NCBI GenBank assembly: GCA_031432545.1
Contig: JAVKGX010000008.1
Span: 15,614 to 79,613, forward strand
Direction of reading: 5' to 3'
DNA length: 64,000 nucleotides
Origin: Armatimonadota bacterium
Lineage (GTDB): Bacteria; Sysuimicrobiota; Sysuimicrobiia; Sysuimicrobiales; Sysuimicrobiaceae
The notes beneath the pieces were generated by a model. The model did no database searches, was not told the origin of the DNA, and saw only the letters and a program-made list of their open reading frames with translations. Below are positions 9,136 through 29,552 of the stretch, piece after piece (the first letter of the stretch is position 1; each line of letters begins with the position of its first letter). Both the position numbers and the translations under genes were made by a program.

Positions 9136-9963
9136 ATGGGCATCAAGCGCTTCAAACCGACGACCCCAGGCCGGCGGTTCGCCACGGCCTACACCTTCGA
9201 CGAGATCACGAAGGACAGGCCCGAGAAGTCCCTGCTCCGCCCGTTGCGGAGGCACGCGGGCCGGAACAACCAGGGGCGGGTTACGACGCGCCACCGCGGG
9301 GGCGGTCACAAGCGGCGATACCGGGTGGTCGACTTCCGGCGCGACAAAGACGGCGTGCCGGCTAGGGTCGCGGCCATCGAGTACGATCCGAACCGCTCGG
9401 CGCGGATTGCGTTGCTGCACTACGCCGATGGTGAGAAGCGCTACGTCCTGGCGCCCGTCGGACTAGCGGTGGGCGACACCGTGGTATCGGGCGAGGAGGC
9501 GGAGATCCGTCCCGGCAACACGTTGCCCCTGGGCAGCATCCCGGTGGGCACCATGGTCCACAACATCGAGTTGCAGCCGGGGCGGGGCGGGCAGATGGTC
9601 CGCGCGGCCGGAGGTGCCGCGCAGATCATGGCTAAGGAGGGCGAGTGGGCGACGCTGCGTCTGCCCTCCGGCGAGATGCGCAAGGTGTCCGTGCGCTGTC
9701 GGGCGACCGTGGGGCAGGTCGGCAACCTTGAGCACGAGGCAATCAAGCTGGGCAAGGCCGGGCGCAAGCGGTGGCTGGGCATCCGGCCGACGGTGCGTGG
9801 GGTCGCTCAGGACCCCCGCAGCCACCCCCACGGGGGCGGTGAGGGGAAGTCGCCGATCGGCATGCCCGGCCCGGTGTCGCCGTGGGGCAAACCCACCCTG
9901 GGCAAGAAGACGCGCAGACCGGCCAAGCCCAGCGACAAGTACATCGTGAAGCGGCGCAAGTGA
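9136..9963 (+). CDS. rplB: 50S ribosomal protein L2
   Basis: Core large-subunit protein needed for subunit association and peptidyl transfer. 275 residues, full length. It has [19 protein letters not shown] near the N-terminus and the conserved C-terminal [17 protein letters not shown], including the functionally important His of that loop. Confidence 0.98.
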
Positions 9964-9991
9964 GCATACGACCACGGACGCGGGGTTGCAC

Positions 9992-10276
9992 ATGGGACGT
10001 TCTCAGAAGAAAGGGCCGTTCGTCGACGAGCACCTGTTGAAGAAGATCCAGGCGCTCAACCAGAAGCGGGAGAAGCGCGTGATCCGGACCTGGTCGCGGC
10101 GGTCGACGATCCTTCCGGACTTCGTCGGCCACACGATCGCCGTGCACGACGGCCGCAAGCACGTGCCGATCTACATCACCGAGCAGATGGTCGGTCACAA
10201 GCTGGGCGAGTTCGCCCCCACCCGCACGTTCAAGGGTCACGGGGGATCGGAGCGGACGACGGGTGTGAAGGGCTGA
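9992..10276 (+). CDS. rpsS: 30S ribosomal protein S19
   Basis: 30S head protein that pairs with S13. 94 residues starting [18 protein letters not shown] at 9992 gives the canonical N-terminus; a TTG two codons upstream is also open but adds residues not found in the family. Confidence 0.97.
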
Positions 10277-10331
10277 TCGGTCTTCGGCGACGGGTCGGCC
10301 AGGACGCCGACGGCGAGTCGTGGGGGTTGCG

Positions 10332-10679
10332 ATGGAAGCGCGGGCGGTTGCCAAGTACATCCGGATGTCGCCGCTCAAGGTGCGGCGCGTGGCCGAAGCG
10401 GTGCGCGGGCGCGGTGTGGATGAGGCGCTGGCGATCCTGCGTGCGATGCCCCACCGGGCCGCCCGGGTCGTCGAGAAGTGCGTGAAGTCGGCGGCGGCCA
10501 ACGCGGAGCACAACCTGGACTTGGACCGCGATACCCTGATCGTCGCCCGGATCGCCGTCGACCGGGGTCCTGGCGGCAGCATGTGGAAGCGTCTGATGCC
10601 GCGTGCGCGTGGCCGTGCCGATATCATCACCAAGCACACCAGCCACATCACGGTCGTCGTCGCCGAGCGGGAGTACTAG
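10332..10679 (+). CDS. rplV: 50S ribosomal protein L22
   Basis: Exit-tunnel protein; 115 residues with [18 protein letters not shown] and the C-terminal [20 protein letters not shown] at 10332 follows a GGGGGTTGCG tract; the in-frame GTG at 10320 adds four residues with no better site. Confidence 0.96.
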
Positions 10680-10719
10680 GGGGTTCGTCAGGTTCCGTCC
10701 AGAGCGCGGAGGTGCAGGC

Positions 10720-11385
10720 GTGGGACAGAAGGTGCATCCGGTCGGGCTGCGGCTGGGGATCATCCGCGATTGGGAGTCCCGCTGGTACAGCGAGAAGTCG
10801 TTCGCGGACAACCTGCACGAGGATCTGCGGCTGCGCAAGTACATCAAGCAGAAGCTCTACCGAGCCGGGATCTCGCGGATCGAGATCGAGCGGCAGTCCA
10901 AGGCGGTCAAGATCACGGTGCACGCCGCGCGGCCAGGGATCATCATCGGTCGCGGGGGCGCCGGCATCGACGCGCTGCGAAAGGAGCTCGCCGAGCTGAC
11001 CGGCAAGGAGATCCATCTCAACGTTCAAGAGGTGCGTCGCCCGGAACTCGAAGCGCAGCTGGTCGCCGAGAACGTGGCCCAGCAGCTGGAACGGCGCATC
11101 GCGCATCGGCGGGCCATGAAGCAGGCCGTCCAGCGCACGCTGCGCGCGGGCGCGAAGGGCATCCGCATCTCGTGCTCCGGCCGTCTGGGGGGTGCGGAGA
11201 TCGCGCGCTACGAGTGGTACCGTGAGGGCCGCGTGCCGCTGCACACGCTGCGCGCGGACATCGACTTCGGCGTCGCCGAAGCCCTGACGACGTACGGGCG
11301 CATCGGCGTCAAGGTGTGGATCTACCGCGGGGAGGTGTTCCCCGAGCACCGCCGCGAGACGCGCGCGATCCGGGCGGCGCGCTAG
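10720..11385 (+). CDS. rpsC: 30S ribosomal protein S3
   Basis: Forms the mRNA entry site. 221 residues, starting [17 protein letters not shown], with the KH-domain loop [11 protein letters not shown] and the C-terminal [11 protein letters not shown]. The start is GTG 10720 behind a near-perfect GGAGGTG at 10709-10715; the frame is open upstream into rplV but only this start gives the family N-terminus. Confidence 0.97.
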
Positions 11386-26463: not shown

Positions 26464-26538
26464 GGGCCCGTAGCTCAAGGGTAGAGCGCCCGGCTCATAA
26501 CCGGTGGGTTCCTGGTTCGAGCCCAGGCGGGCCCACCA
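26464..26538 (+). tRNA. tRNA with CAU anticodon (elongator Met, or Ile2)
   Basis: A complete cloverleaf of 75 nt including an encoded CCA. Acceptor GGGCCCG pairs with CGGGCCC; D stem GCTC/GAGC with a short loop; anticodon loop CTCATAA; T arm CCTGG-TTCGAGC-CCAGG. G1-C72 is paired and the anticodon stem lacks the three G-C pairs of an initiator, so it is not tRNA-fMet. Elongator Met and lysidine-modified Ile2 cannot be separated by eye. The outermost anticodon-stem pair is a C-T mismatch. Confidence 0.92.
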
Positions 26539-27187: not shown

Positions 27188-27997
27188 GTGGCCCTCGACG
27201 CCGGCAAGGGTGCCCTGCCTCCGGAGCGGAAGCGGGCGTACGTGCGCGAGATGTTCAGCGAGATCGCGCGGCACTACGACCTGCTCAACAACCTCCTGAG
27301 CTTCGGTCTGCACAGGCGGTGGAAGCGCCACGCGGCGCGCCTCGCGCGGTTGGTGCCCGGCGGGCGGGCGCTGGACGTCTGCTGCGGCACCGGCGACCTG
27401 GCAGTCCTGCTCCACGAGCGGATCGGTGCGGAGGGGAGGGCGGTGGGCATCGACTTCGCCGCACCGATGGTCCAGATCGCGCGGCAACGGTCGGGCGGCC
27501 GGGGCCGGATCTGGTTCGTACAGGGCGACGCGGAGTCGCTGCCGCTTCCCGACGCCGCCTTCGATGCGGTCACCGTCGGCTTCGGCGTCCGCAACGTCGC
27601 CCGGCTCGACGTGGCGCTGCGCGAACTGCACCGGGTGCTGCGGCCGGGGGGCCGCGCGGTGATCCTGGAGTTCAGCCGCCCTCGGAATGCGCTCTTCCGG
27701 GCACTGTACGATTTCTACTCGTACACCGCGATCCCGTGGGTCGGGCGCCGGCTGTCCCACCACCCCGACGCCTACCTCTACCTGCCGACGTCCATCCGGC
27801 ACTGGCCCAACCAGGAGGCGTTCGCGCGCATCCTCGCGGCCGTGGGATTCACCCACGTGCGGTATGAGAACCTCCTGTGGGGGGCTGTGGCCGTACACGT
27901 CGGCGAGAAGGGCACCGTCCCCGGGGAAGTCCAGGAAACGAAAGCGCACCCCGAGAACAAAACCCAAGGCCGCTTGGCGGATCGAGGTGTACCGTGA
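27188..27997 (+). CDS. menG: demethylmenaquinone methyltransferase (UbiE/MenG family)
   Basis: SAM-dependent C-methylation in quinone synthesis, most likely the last step to menaquinone in this lineage. 269 residues, with [20 protein letters not shown], the SAM motif [21 protein letters not shown], and FSRPRN...FYDFYSY-like [18 protein letters not shown] start at 27188 gives the family N-terminus. About 25 extra C-terminal residues are unconserved. Its stop overlaps the next gene (GTGA). Confidence 0.93.
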
Positions 27998-28266
27998 ATG
28001 AGTCGGAGAAAACCGGCGTCTACAAGCTCGGCGAAGAACAGCCCGGGGTCTTCGAGATCCTGCTGGAAGTCTACCGAGCACTCCAGGAGCGGGGCTACAG
28101 CCCCAAGGATCAGATCGTCGGCTACCTGATCTCCGGAGACCCGACCTACATCACCAGCCACCGCGGCGCGCGGTCGCTGATCCGCAAGGTGGAACGCGAC
28201 CGCATCCTCGAAGAACTCGTGCGATACTACCTCGACAGCCGGCTGCGGCCGGCGGTGGAGCCCTGA
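27994..28266 (+). CDS. ireB: IreB/ReoM-family regulatory phosphoprotein (DUF965)
   Basis: 90 residues with the family core [20 protein letters not shown] followed by [16 protein letters not shown]. In Enterococcus IreB is a substrate of the Ser/Thr kinase IreK; in Listeria the homologue ReoM controls ClpCP degradation of MurA and is phosphorylated on Thr7. Here Thr is also residue 7 (VNESEKT) when the GTG at 27994 is used, and that start overlaps the menG stop. The following gene, 2 nt downstream, is a MurA homologue, which makes the functional link unusually direct. A role in controlling the downstream enzyme is inference. Confidence 0.9.
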
Positions 28267-28268
28267 CC

Positions 28269-29552
28269 GTGGACCGGCTGGTGGTGCGCGGAAGCCGCCC
28301 CCTCCACGGAGCGGTGAAGGTCGCGGGCGCGGTCAACACGGTGCTGCCGATCATGGCGGCCGCAGCCCTCGCGCCGGATCTGTCGGTGATCGAGAACGTA
28401 CCGCGCTGTCTGGACGTGGAGGTGATGTCCGACATCCTGCGGGCGCTGGGCTGCCGCATCGAGCTGACGCCGGGCGGGCGTCTGGCCGTAGACGCGCGGA
28501 ACCTGCAGGGGGTCACCGCTCCTGCCGAACTCTGCGGCCGGATCCGCGGATCCTACTACGCCGCGGGGATCCTGCTCGCCCGTGCCCGCCGGTTCGAGGT
28601 CGGACTCCCGGGCGGCGACTCCATCGGGGGACGTCCGGTCGACTTCCACATCAAGGGCTTCCAGTCCCTGGGGGCCGCGGTCCAGACCGAGCACGGATAC
28701 ATGCTCGGCCACGCCCCCCAGCTGCAGGGTACCGAGTTCTTCGTCCCGCGCAAGAGCGTGGGCACCACGATCAACATGATGTTGGCGGCGTCGTTGGCCC
28801 ACGGCACCACGGTGCTGCAGAACGCTGCACTCGAACCCGAAGTCACCGACACGGCGGTGTTCTTGAACCTGATGGGAGCCCGCGTGCGGGGAGCCGGCAC
28901 GCCGACGATCACGGTCGAGGGCGTGCGGGGGTTGCGCGGCGCCCGATACACGGTCATCCCCGACCGGATCGAGGCCGGGACCTATCTGATCGCCGGAGCC
29001 GCGACCGGGGGGGACGTCGAGGTGGACGGGTTGATCCCCGAGCACGTCACGGCACTGTTGAGCAAACTGAGCGAAGCCGGCTGCGAGGTCGAAGCCAACA
29101 CCGACAGCGTCCGGGTCCGGGCTCCCCGGCGACTGCGGGCGGTCGATATCGACACGGCTCCGTTTCCCGGGTTCGCCACCGACCTCCACCCGCCGTTCGT
29201 TGCGATGCTGACGACCGCCGAGGGTGAGGCCGTCATCCGGGAGACGATCTACGACGGCCGGATGGGTTACGCCTACGAACTCCAGAAGATGGGGGCCGAC
29301 ATCCGGGTCGAGGGGAACACCGCCTACCTGCGCGGCGTCGACAGGCTCTCCGGGGCGCCCTTGCAGGCACTGGACATCCGGGCGGGGGCGGCGGTAGTGA
29401 TCGCGGGGCTGGTCGCCGAGGGCACGACCGAGATCACTGGGCTCGAGCACATCGACCGGAAGTACGAGGGGCTGGAGGACAAACTGCGGGCCCTCGGCGC
29501 GGACGTCCGCCGGGTGTCTCCTTCCGAGGCTGAGCCCGTGGCCGTCGGCTGA
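28269..29552 (+). CDS. MurA-family enolpyruvyl transferase with altered active site
   Basis: 427 residues, full MurA length and fold signatures: NxVLPIMAAA near the start, LPGGDSIGGRPVDFHIKGF, PEVTDTAVFLNLMGA, IPDRIEAGTY, and DIRAGAAVVIAGLVAEG. MurA adds enolpyruvate from PEP to UDP-GlcNAc, the first peptidoglycan step. Two key residues differ. The near-invariant Lys22 of GAKN is Val22 (GAVN), and the PEP-binding Cys of GGCAIG is Asp117. Cys-to-Asp is known in fosfomycin-resistant MurA enzymes; loss of Lys22 is not expected in an active enzyme. It may be a divergent paralogue with another reaction or a regulatory role. GTG start at 28269. Confidence 0.88.
   Translation: MDRLVVRGSRPLHGAVKVAGAVNTVLPIMAAAALAPDLSVIENVPRCLDVEVMSDILRALGCRIELTPGGRLAVDARNLQGVTAPAELCGRIRGSYYAAGILLARARRFEVGLPGGDSIGGRPVDFHIKGFQSLGAAVQTEHGYMLGHAPQLQGTEFFVPRKSVGTTINMMLAASLAHGTTVLQNAALEPEVTDTAVFLNLMGARVRGAGTPTITVEGVRGLRGARYTVIPDRIEAGTYLIAGAATGGDVEVDGLIPEHVTALLSKLSEAGCEVEANTDSVRVRAPRRLRAVDIDTAPFPGFATDLHPPFVAMLTTAEGEAVIRETIYDGRMGYAYELQKMGADIRVEGNTAYLRGVDRLSGAPLQALDIRAGAAVVIAGLVAEGTTEITGLEHIDRKYEGLEDKLRALGADVRRVSPSEAEPVAVG

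Follow-up and report, generated by a model that had tools for sequence, protein, structure and literature searches.

In Listeria, control of MurA by ReoM ends in degradation of MurA by ClpCP (PMC7286690, PMC8959180). Thr7 of ReoM is a known phosphosite, and ReoY, a further protein of the Listeria route, is restricted to Bacilli (PMC7286690); in Listeria, changing MurA N197 or S262 abolishes ReoM binding. Enterococcus IreB is a direct inhibitor of MurAB, acting via a surface that includes Asp50, and this residue is required for IreB-MurAB binding in E. faecalis (PMC12077105). For the enzyme itself, Lys22, Arg120 and Arg397 of E. coli MurA hold the fosfomycin phosphonate, and the change Cys115Asp alone gives an active, fosfomycin-insensitive enzyme (PMC4790336). 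Lys22 of E. cloacae MurA was reported as crucial for enzymatic activity (Samland 1999, as cited in PMC4062475).

The locus described here resembles the L. monocytogenes PrkA-ReoM-MurA system in its ReoM/IreB protein with Thr7, its MurA, its PASTA kinase with a PP2C phosphatase, and its ClpC. Unlike that system, the two genes are adjacent, there is a single MurA, and ReoY was not found in the genomes searched; the MurA differs from the Listeria enzyme in carrying Val and Ala at the N197 and S262 positions, and V22, Asp at the 115 position and K398 in the active site. With E. faecalis IreK-IreB-MurAB the locus shares the IreB family, Thr7, the Asp50 equivalent (Asp49) and a route with no need of an adaptor protease, inhibition here being only predicted. 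In contrast to E. faecalis, the target is the sole MurA, belongs to another MurA clade and is gene-linked. Literature searches on ReoM-MurA gene neighbourhoods and on MurA residue 398 found none. New here are the linkage of ReoM and MurA within a MurA clade of its own and, in one family, an unusual MurA with Val22 and Lys398.

Source genome and genome sets

The window (the whole stretch of DNA that was analyzed, 64,000 nucleotides) belongs to a genome of 2.19 Mb with completeness rated 100%. Bacterium HR32 (HRbin32) and two MAGs labelled Armatimonadota are named members of its family; from these members, and partly from GTDB, we take the family to belong to CSP1-3/Sysuimicrobiota. Sysuimicrobiota/CSP1-3 is an uncultured hot-spring bacterial phylum. 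It comprises a single class with a single order and five families, and was earlier placed in Armatimonadota (PMC11604079). The order-level sample contained 43 genomes, and the source-genome family had seven members. A second phylum was sampled with 61 genomes, and is called Bacillota here because IreB matched the B. subtilis and L. lactis controls and 60 of the 61 genomes.

The linked reoM and murA genes

The reoM/ireB gene (27994..28266, plus strand) encodes 90 aa, and its GTG start overlaps the stop of the ubiE/menG methyltransferase gene directly upstream (27188..27997, plus strand; PF01209, 229 bits). A tRNA-Met (CAT) gene is located at 26464-26538 of the window, between truA and ubiE. The ReoM product scored 108 bits against Pfam IreB PF06135 (cut-off 25), its best and only Pfam family, and passed the NCBIfam equivalog NF003997 (113 bits, cut-off 91). 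The nearest solved relatives were Listeria ReoM (6tif, E 3.6e-22) and Enterococcus IreB (5us5). The Thr7 codon (28012..28014, plus strand) aligns with the PrkA/IreK phosphosite Thr7 of ReoM/IreB; across 37 ReoM sequences of the order this Thr and the next Gly were near-invariant (at most 1 exception), with the Thr at about position 5 to 8 when counted from the ReoM start. The Asp49 codon (28138..28140, plus strand), in the motif SGDPTYI, is the equivalent of IreB Asp50 by alignment to 5us5, and the position is near-invariant in the order. Arg57, important in Listeria, is replaced by Ser in the structure-relative alignment.

The murA gene (28269..29552, plus strand) encodes 427 aa and has a GTG start 2 nt past the reoM stop. 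The initial annotation had described a 90-residue IreB/ReoM gene 2 nt from a MurA gene, with Thr as residue 7 if the overlapping GTG is the start; open reading frames and profile scores bore out the first claim, and with the GTG start Thr is indeed residue 7. MurA scored 489 bits against the TIGR01072 murA equivalog (cut-off 393). Its AlphaFold model (mean pLDDT 91) matched 6q03 at Z 58.9, with 1.3 A over 414 residues, and matched AroA structures at Z below 40. Two PF00275 genes are present in the source genome, AroA (on contig C1) and the linked MurA; a second, canonical MurA was sought elsewhere in this genome by genome searches and not found. Profile scores, fold, genomic neighbourhood and the pathway all still place the family protein in MurA by descent, and 'variant MurA' describes it rather than 'standard MurA'.

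Kinase, protease and the proposed mechanism

A PASTA kinase and a ReoY homologue had been named in the initial annotation as partners whose presence in the same genome would bear on the idea. The kinase was found (G000:C1, 653 aa, three PASTA domains; NF033483, 577 bits, cut-off 450), and its gene clusters with FHA, PP2C, FtsW/RodA and PBP genes. The PP2C phosphatase had NF033484 as its best match at 157 bits, under the equivalog cut-off of 230. ReoY (UPF0302, PF08864) was not found in any of ten genomes of the order, while the B. subtilis control was matched. A ClpC-type ATPase of 821 aa, with Clp_N and a UVR motif, is encoded separately from the ClpB gene. The search for the McsB arginine kinase (PF00217) matched no control genome.

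The locus is best explained as a ReoM/IreB-MurA pair that a PASTA kinase controls and that is fixed within a single transcription unit, a reading to which a probability of about two in three was given. Co-transcription, binding, inhibition, phosphorylation and catalysis are inferred, and the known systems (PMC7286690, PMC8959180, PMC12077105) are precedents for the mechanism. Unphosphorylated ReoM dimer would bind MurA and restrain the enzyme, by direct inhibition and/or by handover of MurA to ClpCP. On sensing wall stress, the PASTA kinase would phosphorylate ReoM at Thr7, and phospho-ReoM would release MurA, so that the first committed peptidoglycan step could proceed; by analogy, ReoM probably does bind MurA and release it through Thr7. 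Co-expression would keep the brake and the enzyme proportionate, an arrangement that may suit a single-MurA genome.

As to the form of restraint, an alternative is that ReoM acts as in Listeria, only as an adaptor for ClpCP degradation of MurA that is stopped by Thr7 phosphorylation, with no direct inhibition. The parts shared with Listeria (the ReoM family protein, Thr7, the PASTA kinase and a ClpC with UVR motif) are consistent with this, but finding ClpC, which is a general protease subunit, is weak evidence, and ReoY, which is required in Listeria, is the part that was not found; therefore the ReoM/ReoY/ClpCP route cannot be assumed. Confined as it is to Bacilli, ReoY is no defining part of the kinase-ReoM-MurA system elsewhere. 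Against the same route stands the MurA surface: the Listeria ReoM-contact positions N197 and S262 carry Val and Ala, both usual in the phylum, and since both contact residues are replaced, the ReoM-MurA interface must differ at 197 and 262. Degradation as the sole route was thus considered unlikely. For the kinase-controlled pair, the comparison leans towards direct inhibition, as for E. faecalis IreB and MurAB, which would fit at least as well as the Listeria route; handover to ClpCP is nevertheless a strong competitor.

Conservation and phylogeny of the pair

ReoM was present in 37 of the 43 genomes of the order, and in all 37 reoM immediately preceded a co-directional murA, at a spacing of -1 to about 75 nt. 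The other six genomes lacked ReoM and likewise a MurA over the cut-off, which looks like a missing assembly stretch. In the Bacillota sample, ReoM was found in 60/61 genomes and MurA over the cut-off in all but one; reoM was directly upstream of murA in 5 of the 60 ReoM-bearing genomes (G208, G212, G213, G217 and G224). The initial annotation had named recurrence of the gene order in the lineage as a check, and the order does recur, in every relative at order level that has ReoM. It had also stated that in Firmicutes the two genes normally lie apart, which holds for 55/60 Bacillota genomes. Its suggestion of a regulator-target pair outside the usual Firmicutes stood, and the part that made the linkage special to this lineage did not: the five linked Bacillota genomes rule out a linkage unique to Sysuimicrobiota.

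Two ReoM/IreB genes per genome were observed in Bacillota G208, G213, G224, G200 and G247, and in the first three of these one copy was the MurA-linked one. The second Bacillota IreB may serve another MurA.

A maximum-likelihood tree was built from 58 MurAs. In it, a single clade (support 100/99, in a tree with modest sampling and a bootstrap that was not fully settled) unites every Sysuimicrobiota MurA with the five from linked Bacillota pairs, and stands apart from the sampled unlinked Bacillota MurAs.

These data also bear on whether the pair is a conserved operon only, i.e. two wall genes that are co-transcribed with no direct ReoM-MurA contact in the phylum. Such a reading draws on the family's gene order, in which ubiE and nuoB also flank the pair. 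However, the ubiE-reoM order is kept within the family and not throughout the order, the gene upstream of the pair differs between Sysuimicrobiota families (ubiE or truA) and between linked Bacillota loci, and the pair persists while its flanks change between families and phyla. The linkage moreover tracks a MurA clade, and direct binding of ReoM/IreB to MurA proteins is known from two Firmicutes (PMC8959180, PMC12077105). Co-transcription with no contact was accordingly judged improbable beside the kinase-controlled pair.

The MurA active site and the Mur pathway

Lys22, the PEP phosphate ligand of MurA, is regarded as essential and as strictly conserved. In the linked MurA, residue 22 is Val (codon GTC, 28332..28334, plus strand); the position was Lys in all non-family MurAs examined, i.e. 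43/43 other MurAs of the first alignment and 76/76 non-family MurAs of the wider set, and the added Bacillota MurAs likewise have Lys22. The position of E. coli MurA Cys115 is occupied by Asp117 in the alignments (codon GAC, 28617..28619, plus strand). Arg397 is kept and is followed by Lys398 (codons 29457..29462, plus strand), where all non-family MurAs examined have Gly. Val22, Lys398 and Asp at the Cys115 position are common to all seven family MurAs. That the family's sole MurA has lost Lys22 and gained Lys398 was missed by the initial annotation.

Fifty columns of the first alignment were invariant among the 43 non-family MurAs, and four of these were changed in every family member (K22V, M92I, A94G and G398K). 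These changes fall at or beside active-site positions, because residues 92 and 94 flank the E. coli Arg91 equivalent and 398 adjoins Arg397. The family MurA keeps Asn23, Arg91, Arg120, Asp305, Arg331, Asp369, Arg371 and Arg397. Pairwise dN/dS of murA within the family was 0.11-0.24, which shows purifying selection on the gene.

Asp at the Cys115 position is shared with the fosfomycin-insensitive MurAs of Mycobacterium, Chlamydia and Borrelia (PMC4790336). Unlike the other Asp115-type MurAs examined, the family MurA is without Lys22 and Gly398: both residues are kept in all such MurAs outside the family, at six other loci and in G018, G024 and G027. The latter three belong to one genus of family f7, and judged from the alignment their Cys115Asp is a second, separate change of this kind in the phylum.

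For the rest of the pathway, MurB had normal scores in 6 of the 7 family members, and the seventh genome was 72% complete. MurC, MurD and MurF matched their respective families in the source genome, and MurE, MraY, FtsW and MurG were readable in the same division/cell-wall cluster. As the MurB-MurG pathway genes are present, peptidoglycan precursor synthesis is expected to run.

Other deviations were seen in this cluster and in MurB. MurD (9498-10973 of locus L100) and its orthologues, in 13/13 Sysuimicrobiota genomes checked, have a P-loop GTNGK[F/Y]T rather than GK[S/T], and DSLATN in place of DSKATN. MurE (about 5618-7129 of L100) and its orthologues have a P-loop GTNGKG in families f1, f2 and f5, and the canonical GTNGKT in f7. 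Family-specific decay of MurD and MurE alongside MurA was ruled out, with the MurD traits in 13/13 and the MurE trait in most; on the sequences compared, both are phylum traits. The MurB of L100 has the motif NPPGDAAG, with Ala in 6/6 family members checked and His (NPPGDHAG) in the order's other families.

The weakest alternative, that the family MurA is a pseudoenzyme without catalytic activity, retained for its partnership with ReoM, while UDP-MurNAc comes from elsewhere, e.g. salvage, starts from Val in 7/7 at a position that is invariant in the other MurAs examined and was reported as crucial in the work of Samland as cited, but is very improbable given that this is the only MurA found in each of the seven genomes, that MurB, the reducer of the MurA product, scores normally in 6/7, and that the remaining active-site residues and purifying selection are retained.

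The favoured reading is a PEP pocket that has been rebuilt and would still work, with Lys398 replacing the charge lost at 22, so that within the kinase-controlled pair the family enzyme would remain a working MurA despite V22, K398 and Asp at the 115 position. Relocation of the PEP-phosphate lysine (Lys22 to Val, Gly398 to Lys), in a MurA whose active site would be rearranged yet functional, would be the simplest reading of Val22/Lys398, and is put forward tentatively, at somewhat less than even odds. In the sequences, K22V and G398K occur together through a single event on a single branch, a correlation without replication. A likeness exists to the WNK1 and POMK kinases, whose catalytic lysine has migrated and in which the conserved lysine is missing and a new active-site lysine lies elsewhere (PMC10211241); unlike these, MurA is of another enzyme class, and the lysine compensation is hypothetical here.

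Implications

Occurring in a phylum beyond Bacillota, and in a MurA clade common to the two phyla, the gene order marks MurA as a preferred ReoM partner. Minimal systems of this kind, with one MurA, one ReoM and ReoY not found in the ten genomes searched, could separate direct inhibition from delivery to ClpCP. The Asp at the 115 position predicts fosfomycin insensitivity. The Val22/Lys398 MurA raises the question of whether enolpyruvyl transferases can do without Lys22, and offers a natural case for testing relocation of a catalytic lysine in the target enzyme of fosfomycin. If true, the relocated lysine would be the enolpyruvyl-transferase counterpart of that in WNK kinases, in a sole, ReoM-linked MurA.
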